IMG/VR virus record: IMGVR_UViG_3300005524_000029
Coordinates: 1 to 20,245 of that record
Origin: a virus
Reading direction: 5' to 3' (one strand)
DNA: 20,245 nt
Shown here: piece after piece, positions 2,496 through 10,524 of the stretch
How positions within the stretch are numbered: the stretch's first letter is position 1
How the letters are laid out: every line of letters starts with the position of its first letter
Program-made: the position numbers and the translations under genes
The notes under the pieces: model-generated
What the model saw: the letters and a program-made list of their open reading frames with translations, nothing else
Database searches by the model: none
Told to the model about the DNA's origin: nothing

Positions 2496-2565
2496 GCCAG
2501 GCCAATATTTCTGGCTTGTTTTTCCCTTGCAAGCCAAAAATGCCAATATAAAATTATTTTATTGG
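2496..2565 (+). promoter_or_regulatory. Structured leader of the phosphoesterase gene (competing inverted repeats)
   Basis: Three inverted repeats lie in the gap. GCCAG (2496-2500) can pair with CTGGC (2511-2515); TGGCTTG (2512-2518) with CAAGCCA (2530-2536); and CCAATA (2543-2548) with TATTGG (2560-2565). The first two cannot form together. The third would bury the TTG start at 2562. GCCAATAT is also a direct repeat (2501-2508 and 2542-2549), so the upstream copy could take the place of the downstream one. No Shine-Dalgarno is seen near the start. A translational switch is inference. Confidence 0.4.
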
Positions 2566-3509
2566 ATCAGCACGATCTCGTAGCAGCTCTTAAGCAGCTG
2601 GCAGGGGAATTAGGAAGAACGCCCACGCGCGAGGAGTTCTGCCGGGCCGTTCGCGGTGCGCATTACGCGCTACCAAAGTTCGGCGGATTCATGCCCCTTC
2701 TTCAAGCTGCTGGGATGGAGAGCAGGCGATTTGATAAAAAGGATCGCCCTCTAGGAAATATCGTCTTTGAGACCTCAATTGATAAGCACCTAGAGGCTTA
2801 TCAGCCAAAAGAGCCTATTATCCAAGGCCCATATCCAAGCATTGCCTCAATCTCTGATATCCATTGGCCATTTCCAAATAACCGCGTGGTCTCAAGATTC
2901 CAAGAGTTCTGCGGCGATCTTAAGCCAGAATGGGTGATCCTAAATGGCGATGCCTGGGATATGTATAGCCACGCCAAATTTCCAAGATCGCACAATGTTT
3001 TTACGCCAAGAGAAGAGCAGGCAAAGGCAAGGGCCATGAACGAAGAGTTCTGGCAAAAGATCAAAGCCAGATGCCCTGCAGCAAAATGCGTTCAGATGAT
3101 CGGCAATCATGACGTTAGACCGATGAAGCGCATCCTAGAGGCTTATCCAGAGGCAGAGGATTGGATAGCGGAAAAGCTTAAAAGCTTATTTTCTTTCACA
3201 GATGTGAAAACGATCTTTGATCCCAGAGAGGAGCTTGAGATCGGGAATATTTTAGTCTTCCATGGATATCGGAGCAAGCTTGGCGATCATAGGGATTATA
3301 CGCTCATGAATACGATCAATGGCCATACGCATCAGGGCGGGGTGAGCTTCCGTAGGATTAGAGGGCAAACGCTCTGGGAGCTTAATTCTGGATTAGCTGG
3401 AGATCCTGAGGCTAAGGGGTTGACCTATACGCCGCAGAGGATAACCAATTGGACGCCAGGCTTTGGAGCCGTGGATTGCCATGGCCCCAGATTTATATGC
3501 GAAGGCTAG
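2562..3509 (+). CDS. Calcineurin-like metallophosphoesterase with N-terminal homing-endonuclease-associated repeat
   Basis: All metal-binding motifs of the calcineurin-like phosphoesterase superfamily are present in order: SDIH (D99, H101), NGD (D130), GNHD (181-184), a lone FHG (H234) and GHTH (254-257). A dinuclear metal site acting on phosphodiesters or phosphomonoesters is therefore expected; the substrate (nucleic acid, nucleotide or protein) cannot be read. Residues about 5-50 resemble the HNH/homing-endonuclease-associated repeat (ALKQLAGELGRTPTREEF, then a FGGFMPLLQAAG half), a small DNA-contacting helix pair, which favours a DNA-directed enzyme. The start is uncertain: TTG at 2562 is the only standard start before that domain, there is no Shine-Dalgarno, and the frame is open back to 2475. 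Confidence 0.85.
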   Translation: MDQHDLVAALKQLAGELGRTPTREEFCRAVRGAHYALPKFGGFMPLLQAAGMESRRFDKKDRPLGNIVFETSIDKHLEAYQPKEPIIQGPYPSIASISDIHWPFPNNRVVSRFQEFCGDLKPEWVILNGDAWDMYSHAKFPRSHNVFTPREEQAKARAMNEEFWQKIKARCPAAKCVQMIGNHDVRPMKRILEAYPEAEDWIAEKLKSLFSFTDVKTIFDPREELEIGNILVFHGYRSKLGDHRDYTLMNTINGHTHQGGVSFRRIRGQTLWELNSGLAGDPEAKGLTYTPQRITNWTPGFGAVDCHGPRFICEG

Positions 3510-4608: not shown

Positions 4609-7014
4609 ATGGAAAACAATCAGCTCTCTTTATCCGCCGAAAAGGCCGTGCGGCTCTGGCGCGAATGGCCAGATAGCTTTGCCGCGAGAGCGAGCAATGG
4701 CAAATGGATGCCTTATCGCTGGTTGCAATATCTTAGCGATCGCATCAGCGATGGCCTAATCCATGGCGGCGGTAGGTATCTTGTCGAGGCCCCTCCGCAG
4801 CATGGTAAACTTTTGGCTCACGATACGCCGGTGCTGACCGCTGATGGCTGGAAAAAGCATGGAGAATTGCGTCCTGGCGATCTCGTTGTCCATCCTTCTG
4901 GTCGATTTATTCGTGTTCTAGCTCTTTCCCCAGATGGCTATGCAGATCACAGCGTTCAAATGACAAATGGGGAAACTTTCTTTTGCCATGGCAGACACGA
5001 ATGGACAGTTATTCGAGATCGAAAACGAGGAACGCTTCAGACGATTGAAACGCAAGAAATGGGATTATTCCATGCTTGCAATGGGAATGCTGGGCATCGC
5101 GGCTCAAGATATAGATTCCAGCTGCCGCTCTCTTGGCCTGTTATTGGAACCGAAAAAGATCTTCCCGTCGCTCCCTATGCTCTTGGAGCTTGGCTTGGCG
5201 ATGGAACTAGAGTTAAGCCAGCTATTTCTGTTTCTAAAAATGACGAGGCAATAATCCAGGGCATTATCCAATCTGGATATCGCGAGAGATCAAGGTGGGT
5301 TTATTCAAAAACCAAGGTCGTTACCGTAGCCTTTGATGGGCTATGGGATGGATTAAAGAAAGCCGGCGTTGCTAATATCAACGGAAGATTTCGTCCAAAG
5401 CTGATTCCAGATCAGTATCTGACGGCATCGATAAATCAGAGGTTAGAGCTTCTGGCTGGATTAATTGACACGGATGGTTATGCTTATTCTAAAAATGGTC
5501 GCCATGTTTTCACAACATCTGAACCAGAGCTGGCGGATTCATTTTGCGCGCTGCTCTCTTCTTTTGGATGGTCCTTTAGCAGAGTAAAAGAAAAACCAAG
5601 GCTTAGCTCTAGCGGCATTCAGGGCAAATCCGAATATTGGGTAATTGGCTTTAATCCAGATCGCCCTATCCCTTGCCGACTTTCCAGAAAGCAAGTCTAT
5701 AAGCCAACCAAAAGAAGGCGCGTTGCAATAAAATCAATCAAGAGATTAGAGATGCCAATTGCGGGCCGATGCATTCAGGTCGATAGTCCAGATGGCCTTT
5801 ATTTGGTTGGGCGAACGCTGATCCCAACGCATAATTCTGAATTCATCTCGCACTGGGTGCCAACCTGGTTCTTAAATAGATTCCCCAATAAAAAGGTCAT
5901 CTTGGCAAGCTATGCTCAGGATTATGCAACCAAATGGGGAGCAAAGGTCAGAGAAGAGCTCTCGCTTAATCCACTAGCTGCGATCCCCATGAGAATCGAT
6001 ACCAAGGCCAAGAAGCGCTTTATGACAGCTGATGGTGGTCAGATGATCACAGCTGGTATAGGCGGCCCGGTCACAGGCGAGGGCGCTGATCTGCTCATCA
6101 TCGATGATCCGTTTAAGAATTACGAGGAAGCGATGTCTGAGCGCATCCGCCAGCGCAATTGGGATTGGTGGGAATCCGTCGCACGCACGAGACTCCAGCC
6201 CGGCGCAACGGTCATTATTCTGCACACCAGATGGCATGAGGATGATCTTATTGGCAGGCTCTCAGAAGATCCGCAATGGGAGAAGATCCATCTGCCGGCG
6301 ATGGCCGAAGAGAATGACGCTATGGGGCGAAAGCCTGGCGAGGCTTTATGCCCGGAGCGCTACGATGAAAAGCACCTTGAGCAGCTAAAGCGTGATCTCA
6401 AGGAAGGATTAGTCTGGTGGGCGCTATTTCAGCAATCACCAGTGACCAAGGGCGGCAATATCATTCGCGGCGATTGGATTCAGCGCTATACCAGCCTGCC
6501 AAAAGATATTGATGAGATCGCAATCTTTGCTGATCTGACCTACGAAGAGGGAGAAGAGAACGATTATACCGTGGTTGAGGCTTGGGGACGCAAGGGAGCT
6601 GATATCTATCTCATCGCTCAGATCCGCTCGCAAATGGGCTTTGGCGACCAATGCGAGGCGATCGTACGCATGAAGGCGCTCTACCCTAAGGCTTATCATA
6701 TCGAGATCGAAAAGAAGGCCAATGGCGCAGCGGTTATCGAAACTGTAAAAAAGAAGATCCCAGGCATCTTTGCCAACAATCCAAAGACTAGCAAAGAGGC
6801 GCGCTTGCATGCCGTGGCTCCGATTTACCAGGCTAAAAACGTCTATTATCCTGATCTATCCATAGCGCCGTGGATCAAGGAGAACTTAAACGAGATCACC
6901 AAATTCCCAAGAGCAAAGCACGACGATACGGTTGACGTAGCAACAATGGCTGTTGGATATTTCGGTCAAATGGCAAGCACGCTGCAAAAGCTTGCAGCGA
7001 TGTCTAAGCGCTAG
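4609..7014 (+). CDS. terL: Terminase large subunit with in-frame intein
   Basis: This is the packaging motor: an ATPase that drives DNA into the prohead plus a nuclease that cuts the concatemer. The 801-residue precursor splices to a predicted 459 residues. ATPase: Walker A is split as PPQHGK (62-67) then Ser410 after the intein; Walker B is LLIIDD (495-500) before PFKN. RNase H-like nuclease: D642 (FADLTYEE), the Glu pair around 699-701 (HIEIEKK) and D772/D773 (KHDDTVD). C-terminal positions are precursor numbers. The ATG at 4609 has only a weak AGG nearby. The next gene starts 15 bases downstream with a GAGGAG site. Packaging activity should depend on splicing, because the Walker A Lys and Ser are 342 residues apart in the precursor. 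Confidence 0.93.
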   Translation: MENNQLSLSAEKAVRLWREWPDSFAARASNGKWMPYRWLQYLSDRISDGLIHGGGRYLVEAPPQHGKLLAHDTPVLTADGWKKHGELRPGDLVVHPSGRFIRVLALSPDGYADHSVQMTNGETFFCHGRHEWTVIRDRKRGTLQTIETQEMGLFHACNGNAGHRGSRYRFQLPLSWPVIGTEKDLPVAPYALGAWLGDGTRVKPAISVSKNDEAIIQGIIQSGYRERSRWVYSKTKVVTVAFDGLWDGLKKAGVANINGRFRPKLIPDQYLTASINQRLELLAGLIDTDGYAYSKNGRHVFTTSEPELADSFCALLSSFGWSFSRVKEKPRLSSSGIQGKSEYWVIGFNPDRPIPCRLSRKQVYKPTKRRRVAIKSIKRLEMPIAGRCIQVDSPDGLYLVGRTLIPTHNSEFISHWVPTWFLNRFPNKKVILASYAQDYATKWGAKVREELSLNPLAAIPMRIDTKAKKRFMTADGGQMITAGIGGPVTGEGADLLIIDDPFKNYEEAMSERIRQRNWDWWESVARTRLQPGATVIILHTRWHEDDLIGRLSEDPQWEKIHLPAMAEENDAMGRKPGEALCPERYDEKHLEQLKRDLKEGLVWWALFQQSPVTKGGNIIRGDWIQRYTSLPKDIDEIAIFADLTYEEGEENDYTVVEAWGRKGADIYLIAQIRSQMGFGDQCEAIVRMKALYPKAYHIEIEKKANGAAVIETVKKKIPGIFANNPKTSKEARLHAVAPIYQAKNVYYPDLSIAPWIKENLNEITKFPRAKHDDTVDVATMAVGYFGQMASTLQKLAAMSKR
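4810..5835 (+). mobile_element. Class 3-type intein with LAGLIDADG homing endonuclease, in the terL Walker A motif
   Basis: Residues 68-409 of the precursor form a self-splicing insert. The N-terminal block reads LLAHDTPVLTADGW, with Leu68 where most inteins have Cys or Ser. Class 3 inteins, known from phage proteins, lack that nucleophile and instead carry Trp (block B), Cys (block F) and Thr (block G). Here these are W132 (RHEWTV), C388 (GRCIQVD) and T407 (IPTHN), with terminal His408-Asn409 and Ser410 as the +1 residue. The endonuclease core has two LAGLIDADG motifs, LGAWLGDG (192-199) and LAGLIDTDG (282-290), with both Asp kept (D198, D289), so homing may be active. By eye GATC occurs 8 times in 1,026 bases here against 17 in the following 1,179 bases of terL, a sign of separate ancestry. 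Confidence 0.9.
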
Positions 7015-7029
7015 TATTCTGAGGAGAAC

Positions 7030-9381
7030 ATGGCTAAAATTACGCCCATCAGAAAAAGTCTCAGCTCTCATCGCGGTCCTATCGAAAGAAATCAAAAGCG
7101 CAAAGATGGATGGTCAAACCTAATCACAAGCCTTGGCACGGGCGCTGATAAGAGATTAGCATCGCAGCTTCTCTGGGAGAATCATGATCCAGAGTTCTTT
7201 GAGCAGATGTATGCTGGAGGCGGGATTCCCGCGCGAATCGTCGATATCTTGCCAGAGGAGTGTCTTCGCCATTGGATTGAATGGTCAAACGTTGACAAAA
7301 AAGAGCAAGAGCGCAGAAATGAGCTCTGCGAGCAGCTTGATGTTCGTGGCTCGCTTTTAAAAGCTTGGAAATGGGGCAGAGCTTATGGCGGCGGATTATT
7401 GCACATCGTTACTGACACCGCAGATCCAGCATCACCACTACGCATTGGAGAGCGCGTCATTGGTTTGCGTGATCTTAGCCGTTGGGATGTTCGTATTCTT
7501 ACTACGGATATTGAGTTCGACTTTGGGAGCCCAAACTGGGGACAGCCAAGAATCTATTACCTAAACGTCCAGATGGGGAGCCAATACAAGGGCTATCCGA
7601 TCCATTGGACTAGAATGCTAAGGTTTGATGGCCAACTTGTTCCACGTAGAACATATATCCGAAACGGCTATTGGCATGATTCGATCTTAAATCGCCTTTA
7701 CAACGCTATTAGGAATTATGAGACGAGCAACGACGCTGCGGCGGCGTGCTTGCAAGATTTCAATGTCGATGTTTTTAAGATGAAAAACCTAGCCAATCTC
7801 ATGGGCGCCGGCAACGAAGAGGTCGTAAGATCTCGCATCGAGATGCTCGAGTATTGCAAATCCACGCTTAATGCGATGCTCATTGATGCCGATGAGGAGG
7901 ATTACGAGAATAAGGCAAGGCAAATGCAAGGCGTTGCCGAGCTCTTAATCCATCAAGCAAATAGGCTCGTCGCTGATACGGATATCCCGCATACCAAGCT
8001 CTTAGGGGAATCGCCTGATGGATCAAATGCAACGGGCAATTCAACCTCTCAGCAGTGGTACAACTTTGTCGGCACAGAGCAGGAGAATTATCTTAAGCCA
8101 AAGCTTAAGCGCTTATTCTCGATGCTCTTTCCTGATGCCAAAGAGATTAGCTTTAAATTCAGAAGCCTTAGAGTGCTCGATGATACTGAGAAAGCGGATC
8201 TTAGGCTTAAGGTCGCTCAAACCGATCAGATCTATATCGAGCAAGGCGTGCTTGATAAATCAGAGGTCGCCGAATCTAGGTTTGGCGGCGATGAATATTC
8301 GATTGAGACCACGATCGATAAAGAGGCAAGAGAATCTGGCGAGCTTATCCCTGGCCAGCAGGAAATCGAAGGAAATGAGAGCGAAGAGGAAGAAAAAGAG
8401 CCAGACGAGGGAGATGGCGGAAAAGAGCCCAAAAATGATGCAGAGCCCTTTAATACCAGCGGCAATCAGCCGCCAGAGGGCAGATCTGAGCTCATCATGG
8501 AGCCAAGGCCATCTGAGCCAGAGCCTGGCCAAGATATGCGCGGGCACGAAGGTCGTGGTGGCGATATCTCTGGGCGCGAGCCTGAGCTAAATCCTAAGCC
8601 TAATGGCAAGGGCGTTGAGGGCCAAGGCATAGGCGAGCTATTTGAGGGCACAGGCAGACCAAGCACGGAGTTTGATCTACGCAATGAGCAAGGCCCTGGC
8701 GGATCAAAGCCCATTGAAAAGACGTTTATAAGCCAGACGATGAGCGAGCCTATGCGAGATCCGCGAACCGATCCGCATATCAAAGGCCCTGGAATTCCTA
8801 ATAAGCCTAGAACCGTATTGCCGACCAGGGGCACAGGCATCATGGCGCCAAGCGGATTTGATTTTGAGAAAGATGCCGGCAAAGAAGGCGCGCAGCGCGA
8901 GGGTGAGCAAATCGCCGCATCACCAGGGTCAGCTTATGCCTACGATAAAGAGGATCTAGATGAGGCGCCGGCAAAGAAGGCCAGAGCGGCAACGATTATC
9001 GTTCGCAAGGGCGATAAATTCCTGATGGGCAAAACTAATAAAGATGGCAGCTGGACATTGCCAGGCGGGCATATCGAAGATGGCGAATCCGCTCACCAGG
9101 GCGCGATCCGCGAGCTCACGGAAGAGACCGGCCTTAAAGCGCAAAAGCTTAAATGGCTTGGGACAAGGCTTGTTGAGAGCCGCGCTGGACAGCCGGTTGA
9201 GGTTGCCATCTATGAGCACAACGCTGATGCGGGATCTAGGCCAAGCGGAAAGAATGACCCAGATAAAGAGGTCGGCAAATGGCAATGGTTTGATTCTAAA
9301 AAGCCATTGGATGCAGAGGTGCTTGGGAATCTAAAGCACGCCTACAATGTCGCTCTTGATCACATGGGCTTGCTCAAATGA
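7030..9381 (+). CDS. DUF1073-type portal protein fused to a C-terminal Nudix hydrolase domain (783 aa)
   Basis: Residues 1 to about 440 match the DUF1073/phage portal family (for example YAGGGIPARIVDILPEE, WGRAYGGGLLHI, and LLGESPDGSNATGNSTSQQWY before the long clip helices). This is the ring through which DNA enters; its place between terL and the Mu F-like gene fits. Residues about 440-640 are a Glu/Gly/Pro-rich, probably disordered linker. Residues about 652-783 are a Nudix domain with a perfect box: G680, E686, R694-E695-L696, E698-E699, G701-L702. Nudix enzymes cleave nucleoside diphosphates linked to another group; the substrate here is unknown. The frame is unbroken and there is no stop or internal ribosome site that I can point to in the linker. 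GAGGAGAAC precedes the ATG. Some databases label DUF1073 proteins 'Acb1-like'; the context here is portal. Confidence 0.88.
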   Translation: MAKITPIRKSLSSHRGPIERNQKRKDGWSNLITSLGTGADKRLASQLLWENHDPEFFEQMYAGGGIPARIVDILPEECLRHWIEWSNVDKKEQERRNELCEQLDVRGSLLKAWKWGRAYGGGLLHIVTDTADPASPLRIGERVIGLRDLSRWDVRILTTDIEFDFGSPNWGQPRIYYLNVQMGSQYKGYPIHWTRMLRFDGQLVPRRTYIRNGYWHDSILNRLYNAIRNYETSNDAAAACLQDFNVDVFKMKNLANLMGAGNEEVVRSRIEMLEYCKSTLNAMLIDADEEDYENKARQMQGVAELLIHQANRLVADTDIPHTKLLGESPDGSNATGNSTSQQWYNFVGTEQENYLKPKLKRLFSMLFPDAKEISFKFRSLRVLDDTEKADLRLKVAQTDQIYIEQGVLDKSEVAESRFGGDEYSIETTIDKEARESGELIPGQQEIEGNESEEEEKEPDEGDGGKEPKNDAEPFNTSGNQPPEGRSELIMEPRPSEPEPGQDMRGHEGRGGDISGREPELNPKPNGKGVEGQGIGELFEGTGRPSTEFDLRNEQGPGGSKPIEKTFISQTMSEPMRDPRTDPHIKGPGIPNKPRTVLPTRGTGIMAPSGFDFEKDAGKEGAQREGEQIAASPGSAYAYDKEDLDEAPAKKARAATIIVRKGDKFLMGKTNKDGSWTLPGGHIEDGESAHQGAIRELTEETGLKAQKLKWLGTRLVESRAGQPVEVAIYEHNADAGSRPSGKNDPDKEVGKWQWFDSKKPLDAEVLGNLKHAYNVALDHMGLLK

Positions 9382-9461: not shown

Positions 9462-10327
9462 AGATCAGCCAAAAAAGGTTGCCAGAGGCAACCGCTCCAG
9501 ATTCAGCAGAGCGAGAGTATCTTAAGCTGCTCTCAAAATACTCGAAAGCGTATATCGAGCTAATGAGAAAAGAGCTCGATGCGGTTATACCAAAGCTCAA
9601 AAAAACAGCAGGATCTGAAATCCCGCGAGCTGATAGTATCAGGATGGATGAGAATATCGCGGCACGGATAGGAAAGATCTTTGATCGCATTAATAAGCGC
9701 CTAGAGGAGATGTTCCCTAACCCGCTTCTTCGCAAATGGGCATCAAGCATGATCGGCGATGTGAATCGCAATGCCAAAAAGAATACCAAATCACAGCTTA
9801 ATGCCGGTGCGCGAAAGGGCGAGGAGACGCCTGATTTTGAGCCGCTCATGCATGATAAGAAGCTCTCTCCCTATTTTCAGAACATTGTTGATCAAAACGT
9901 ATCGCTAATCAGATCTATCCCTGGGCTTAAGATGGAAGCCTTTAAAAATCAGCTCGTATCGATGATCACAAATGACGCAACGCAAGCAGAGATTAGAGAT
10001 GCTATCCAGAATAATTTCGCTGTTTCGCGCGACCGCGCAGCGCTTATCGCTAGGGATCAGGTCGGAAAGCTAAACGGAGCGCTTAATAAATACCGACAGC
10101 AGCAGCTTGGAGGCAAGCGCTATATCTGGAGAACCTCAAAAGATAGCAAGGTTCGCCGCCCTCGAGCAGGAAAGCGCGGGCCAGACCATTTCCATTTAGA
10201 AGGAAAAGTGTTTTATTGGTCAAAGCCGCCAGTGGTTGATACCAGAACAGGCAGACGCGCGAATCCCGGAGAGGATTTCCAATGCCGCTGCTGGGCGGAG
10301 ATGGTTATGGAGGATGTCTTAGGATGA
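9458..10327 (+). CDS. Phage Mu F-like head morphogenesis protein (289 aa)
   Basis: The C-terminal third is the Mu F domain (PF04233-type): RAALIARDQVGKLNGALNKY, then RYIWRTSKDSKVRR, an H-x-x-L-x-G segment (FHLEGKVFYW) and the PGEDFQCRCWAEMV end with paired Cys. In this family the domain sits in minor head proteins that work next to the portal. The N-terminal two-thirds are helical and charged. TTG at 9458 is chosen because GAGAAGGG (9441-9448) precedes it at good spacing and the start overlaps the previous stop. The gene ends in an ATGA overlap with the HTH gene. Confidence 0.88.
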   Translation: MKISQKRLPEATAPDSAEREYLKLLSKYSKAYIELMRKELDAVIPKLKKTAGSEIPRADSIRMDENIAARIGKIFDRINKRLEEMFPNPLLRKWASSMIGDVNRNAKKNTKSQLNAGARKGEETPDFEPLMHDKKLSPYFQNIVDQNVSLIRSIPGLKMEAFKNQLVSMITNDATQAEIRDAIQNNFAVSRDRAALIARDQVGKLNGALNKYRQQQLGGKRYIWRTSKDSKVRRPRAGKRGPDHFHLEGKVFYWSKPPVVDTRTGRRANPGEDFQCRCWAEMVMEDVLG

Positions 10328-10524
10328 GATTATTAGACAGGATTCATCGGAAATGGCTTATCTGGGCTCTTAAGAGAACCTATGGGAATAAGACCCGCGC
10401 TGCAAAGCTTCTTGGGATATCGGTTAGAACGCTTCGGATTTGGGAAATAAAATTCGGATTGCGCCATGAGCAGCTGCCTAGCAGAAAAGACGCTTGTGCT
10501 GGAACTGGCGCGATGTCAAACTGA
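10324..10524 (+). CDS. Fis-type helix-turn-helix protein (66 aa)
   Basis: Residues about 10-42 (LIWALKRTYGNKTRAAKLLG followed by ISVRTLRIWEIKFGL) are a clear Fis/HTH_8 motif, the C-terminal DNA-binding helix pair of Fis and NtrC-type activators: Asn-Lys-Thr, Ala-Ala-x-x-Leu-Gly-Ile and Arg-Thr-Leu are all kept. The rest is a short polar tail. ATG 10324 overlaps the Mu F-like stop (ATGA). Its own stop touches a 14-bp palindrome at 10524-10537 that could be its binding site (inference). A lone DNA-binding module inside a structural operon suggests regulation of the head genes or a DNA-bound virion role. Confidence 0.8.
   Translation: MRLLDRIHRKWLIWALKRTYGNKTRAAKLLGISVRTLRIWEIKFGLRHEQLPSRKDACAGTGAMSN

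Follow-up and report, generated by a model that had tools for sequence, protein, structure and literature searches.

The stretch of DNA analysed here (the window) covers the whole of record IMGVR_UViG_3300005524_000029, 20,245 bases that are probably a genome fragment. On its plus strand, positions 4609–7014 translate into an open reading frame (ORF) of 801 amino acids, which contains the Pfam domains Terminase_6N, Terminase_6C and LAGLIDADG_3 and matches the PHROGs terminase large subunit with an E value of 2.8e-93. This ORF is the terminase large subunit (TerL) of a tailed phage; because the record is a 20-kb fragment, a further TerL may lie elsewhere in the phage genome. Positions 7030–9381 encode a portal protein with a C-terminal NUDIX hydrolase fusion (Pfam Phage_portal_3; NUDIX E value 9.8e-17), and counterparts 58–69% identical to the NUDIX region lie downstream of the portal gene in the sister phages L254–L259. 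The gene at 2562–3509 encodes a calcineurin-like phosphoesterase with an N-terminal HNH_repeat domain, a repeat associated with homing endonucleases. Further along, in the head module, a small ORF at 10282–10524 overlaps the end of the Mu F-like head gene and bears a Fis-type helix-turn-helix-like sequence (NKTRAAKLLGISVRTLR). The features of the terminase gene are as follows.

4609..4809, + strand: TerL N-extein, its last residues PPQHGK forming the first half of the Walker A motif
4810..5835, + strand: intein assigned to class 3, with a putative LAGLIDADG homing endonuclease, 342 amino acids from Leu1 to Asn342 (alignments; AlphaFold)
4996..5004, + strand: block B, His63 (B:10), Glu64 and Trp65 (B:12; first member of the Trp-Cys-Thr, or WCT, triplet); His63 and Trp65 invariant in 65 inteins
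5137..5679, + strand: predicted homing endonuclease domain, limits approximate (Pfam, phmmer, Foldseek)
5200..5202, + strand: Asp131, first LAGLIDADG acidic residue (LGAWLGDG)
5398..5400, + strand: Lys197, the block D lysine of the endonuclease, the same in all 65 aligned inteins
5473..5475, + strand: Asp222, second LAGLIDADG acidic residue (LLAGLIDTDG), the same in all 65 aligned inteins
5770..5772, + strand: Cys321 (precursor C388), predicted block F:4 nucleophile, aligned to class 3 structures and invariant in 65 inteins
5827..5838, + strand: Thr340 (G:5), His341 (G:6), Asn342 (G:7) and Ser+1 (G:8, the Walker A serine)
5836..7014, + strand: TerL C-extein, with the remaining ATPase and the RNase H-like nuclease (Pfam Terminase_6N/Terminase_6C; PHROG)

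The intein comprises precursor residues 68–409, and the ligated TerL has 459 residues. With slashes marking the two junctions, the precursor reads ...EAPPQHGK / LLAHDTPVLTADGW...CHGRHEWTV...LGAWLGDG...LLAGLIDTDG...GRCIQVD...LIPTHN / SEFISHW.... The insertion point thus falls between PPQHGK and Ser+1, exactly inside the Walker A loop, and the flanks joined without the intein give an unbroken alignment to intein-free TerLs at PPxHxKS. Ser+1 (5836–5838) doubles as the serine of the Walker A motif, so the ATPase site is rebuilt only if splicing is exact. Within the intein, LAGLIDADG_3 spans precursor residues 277–329, and a phmmer match to PI-SceI covers intein residues 120–278. The initial annotation had placed the element at these same coordinates, with the same residue numbers and the same 459/342 split, and translation reproduces them exactly; its proposals that the insertion splits the Walker A motif precisely and that both acidic residues of the endonuclease are kept also hold, the former by the unbroken alignment and the latter by the presence of D131 and D222.

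Several observations place the intein in class 3. First, position 1 carries none of Cys, Ser or Thr but Leu, and the element has Trp at B:12 (W65), Cys at F:4 (C321), the series T340-H341-N342 and a Ser at +1. Across 65 aligned relatives, H63, W65, C321, T340, N342, D222 and K197 never vary, and conservation is 90% or higher for D131 and H341. Second, in phmmer searches of the PDB both termini of the intein align with DnaB inteins of class 3, 6bs8 (E value 1e-9) and 6rix, such that W65, C321 and the THN motif are paired, and tblastn against the phage collection returns matches over 100% of the intein with E values down to 2e-62; such matches lie far beyond chance. Third, the intein nests within clades of TerL P-loop inteins (47 rows, SH-aLRT 97; 34 rows, SH-aLRT 99), both clades coming from trees built without a class 1 outgroup. 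Fourth, the AlphaFold model of the intein (mean pLDDT 96.9, pTM 0.93) aligns in Foldseek with most of the length of the DnaB inteins of class 3, with TM scores normalized by target of 0.75–0.80 (6bs8 0.80; 6rix 0.76–0.77), and with PI-SceI over most of the intein length (TM 0.72 by query); I-DmoI is matched as well. These PI-SceI and I-DmoI fold matches, together with Pfam LAGLIDADG_3 and two motifs with catalytic acidic residues, identify the LAGLIDADG domain. The three residues on which class 3 membership had initially been proposed, precursor Trp132, Cys388 and Thr407, are the invariant W65, C321 and T340, and Cys388, on whose place in block F the proposal had been staked, aligns with the block F Cys of the solved class 3 inteins. 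We are confident in reading the insertion, which parts the Lys of the TerL Walker A motif from its Ser (the 'TerL-a' site), as a mobile class 3 intein, and this P-loop intein with its homing endonuclease is very probably functional.

A leucine as residue 1, which the initial annotation had implied to be rare, turns out to be ordinary in class 3 inteins. A tabulation of related inteins in viral contigs, genomes and phages gave 224 distinct sequences, in which position 1 is Ala in 95, Leu in 49, Gln in 44, Glu and Pro in 7 each, Arg in 4, Ser and Met in 3 each, and another residue in a few others. Leu1 is found mainly at sites with GK directly before the intein, including the terminase of Gordonia phage Verity (VGK/LVAHDTP), and exchanges between Leu and other residues number at least 18 on one tree and at least 31 on the other. 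The same survey gives Trp B:12 in 222, Cys F:4 in 218, Thr G:5 in 222 and Asn G:7 in all 224. In class 3 inteins residue 1 is not a nucleophile (PMC5222942, PMC4031507), and its identity can vary because it has no chemical role; the repeated changes to and from Leu on the trees show how weakly this residue is constrained.

The intein is sporadic in its distribution and foreign in its composition. A scan of viral contigs found no close relatives of the C-extein, and it was a search with the major capsid protein that brought up the sister phages, in which this protein is 88%, 86% and 83% identical. Three of them, L254, L255 and L258, are syntenic with the window and have TerL exteins 61–70% identical to those here, and all three are free of the intein, reading contiguously at the insertion codon as PPQHGKSEF, PPQHGKSQL and PPQHGKSKF, respectively. 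More distant intein-free TerLs, from Staphylococcus, Faecalibacterium, Arthrobacter and Listeria phages, are contiguous at the same codon. The GC content at third codon positions is 0.380 in the intein versus 0.577 in the C-extein; resampled codons of the other genes give 0.533 ± 0.027, and none of 5,000 resamples is as low as the intein. The closest intein, that of L010, is 51% identical, yet the TerL that houses it shares only 39% identity in the C-extein, whereas intein-free TerLs reach 70%; no intein relatives more than 52% identical were available. Because the third-position composition deviates, the nearest intein resides in a less similar TerL and the sisters are intein-free, the data point to horizontal acquisition as a mobile element. 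The window thus offers a clean case of a class 3 intein that apparently reached an essential packaging ATPase by horizontal transfer, and with sisters empty at the same codon, homing and splicing become directly testable. Asn replaces the first LAGLIDADG Asp (D131 in the window) in 28 of the 224 relatives, L092 and L095 among them, suggesting that the endonucleases there are inactive or altered.

TerL P-loop inteins are known, their splicing and their homing-endonuclease cutting of intein-free partner DNA have been published, and insertion between the Lys and Ser of the P-loop has been named TerL1-a (PMC5050341). Following the biochemistry established for class 3 (PMC5222942, PMC7664689) and by analogy with these proven relatives, Cys321 (F:4), aided by His63 and Thr340, would attack the Lys67–Leu68 peptide bond (precursor numbering) to form a branched thioester at block F. 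The N-extein would then be transferred to the hydroxyl of Ser+1, cyclization of Asn342, assisted by His341, would release the 342-residue intein, and an acyl shift would leave a 459-residue terminase with a continuous PPQHGKSEF P-loop. The LAGLIDADG endonuclease probably cuts intein-free terL genes at the conserved P-loop codons, and repair would copy the intein in.

Three other readings were weighed against that of a functional, mobile class 3 intein. That splicing is conditional, for example on redox state through Cys321, and so gates packaging to suitable conditions, a control point suggested in the initial annotation, is possible only by analogy with the P-loop class 3 intein DnaBi1 of Mycobacterium smegmatis, in which oxidation of the catalytic Cys causes reversible inhibition (PMC6195587); TerL before splicing would be without a continuous Walker A motif. 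We consider such control improbable, however, as splicing proceeded readily in the five mycobacteriophage TerL-type inteins that were assayed (PMC5050341), and sporadic presence, foreign composition and intein-free sisters fit a selfish element rather than a needed switch. Less probable still is a degenerate, non-splicing intein within a dying or redundant terminase: one element resembling class 3, Arth_1007, has been proven to be a pseudogene (PMC3196547), but it is without Cys F:4 and His B:10, whereas here all catalytic residues are present, the ORF stays open across both exteins and the terminase domains are intact, and this reading was rejected. Finally, a class 1 or class 2 intein mistaken for class 3, a reading favoured only by the shared HINT fold and blocks, is exceedingly improbable and was rejected: Leu cannot start class 1, and class 2 requires Ser at G:6 with Cys+1 (PMC4031507), positions that hold His341 and Ser+1 here. 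The intein also has every member of the WCT triplet and falls among class 3 relatives in the trees.

Among the relatives of this intein, the survey uncovered a variant triplet, Trp-Ser-Thr, with Ser replacing Cys at F:4 in 6 of the 224 inteins, all in the TerL P-loop: L020, L022, L033, L178, L179 and L220. All six have Thr at +1, versus 48 of 199 inteins with Cys at F:4 at Lys-preceded sites. The tree requires three changes at F:4, corresponding to about three origins. L033 (the same as L174, L175 and L176) recurs as the identical copies L175 and L176 in contigs of two other metagenomes. The F:4 Ser codons differ synonymously (TCT and TCA; also TCC and AGC), and within the main group, where selection was measured, a dN/dS of about 0.15–0.24 between members points to purifying selection, so that these inteins look maintained, not broken. 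L178 and L179 carry Leu1 and thus have no thiol at either usual starting position; L020 and L220 carry Ser1 and could use the class 1 route, which L178, L179, L033 and L022 cannot. The TerL ORF of L020 has two inteins, the Ser-F:4 intein in the P-loop and a class 1-like intein downstream that starts with CLTGDTPILMSDGS, has Cys1 and VVHN/T, and lies directly before TRWH.

By the published rule, active class 3 inteins all need Cys F:4 (PMC3196547, PMC4031507): a class 3-like intein without it is a pseudogene (PMC3196547), and in AceL NrdHF a Cys-to-Ser change abolishes splicing (PMC7891396). A survey of 1701 inteins demanded Cys at the F:4 position (PMC7891396), so the Ser-F:4 members would have dropped out of it, and we found no prior description of Ser-F:4 TerL P-loop inteins in the literature examined. 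We tentatively propose, at somewhat below even chances, that they splice either along an all-oxygen route resembling that of serine proteases or with Thr+1 attacking directly. If active, these members would break the Cys-F:4 rule for class 3.

Among known systems, the TerL intein of the Gordonia phage Verity group (NC_053249) shares the Walker A site (VGK/LVAHDTP...PTHN/S), Leu1, the WCT triplet and LAGLIDADG with the window intein and is 41% identical over its full length, but lies in a different terminase and host and has diverged in sequence. The mycobacteriophage TerL1-a and TerL1-b inteins (BAKA gp6 and others, PMC5050341) are likewise insertions in the large-terminase P-loop. For BAKA TerL1-b, both splicing and cleavage of intein-free DNA have been proven (PMC5050341). 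Its triplet positions read W, C and T, and it includes a LAGLIDADG domain; unlike the window intein, to which it is 36% identical, it is inserted one residue further on and begins with Asp. MchDnaB1 (6rix) and MsmDnaBi1 (6bs8), whose structure and mechanism are known, share the WCT triplet, the P-loop site and HN/S, but reside in DnaB and are mini-inteins without an endonuclease. PI-SceI (the VMA intein), the best overall fold match, has the same combination of a splicing domain and a LAGLIDADG endonuclease, but is a class 1 intein (Cys1) of 454 amino acids in a eukaryotic host gene. The IMG/VR TerL inteins, L010, L002, L003 and others, share the site, the WCT triplet and LAGLIDADG at no more than 51% identity, and L002 and L003 begin with Leu as here; in the group as a whole position 1 may be L, Q, E, A or R, and the terminases are less similar. 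The window intein is an addition to the already known class 3 inteins of the TerL P-loop.
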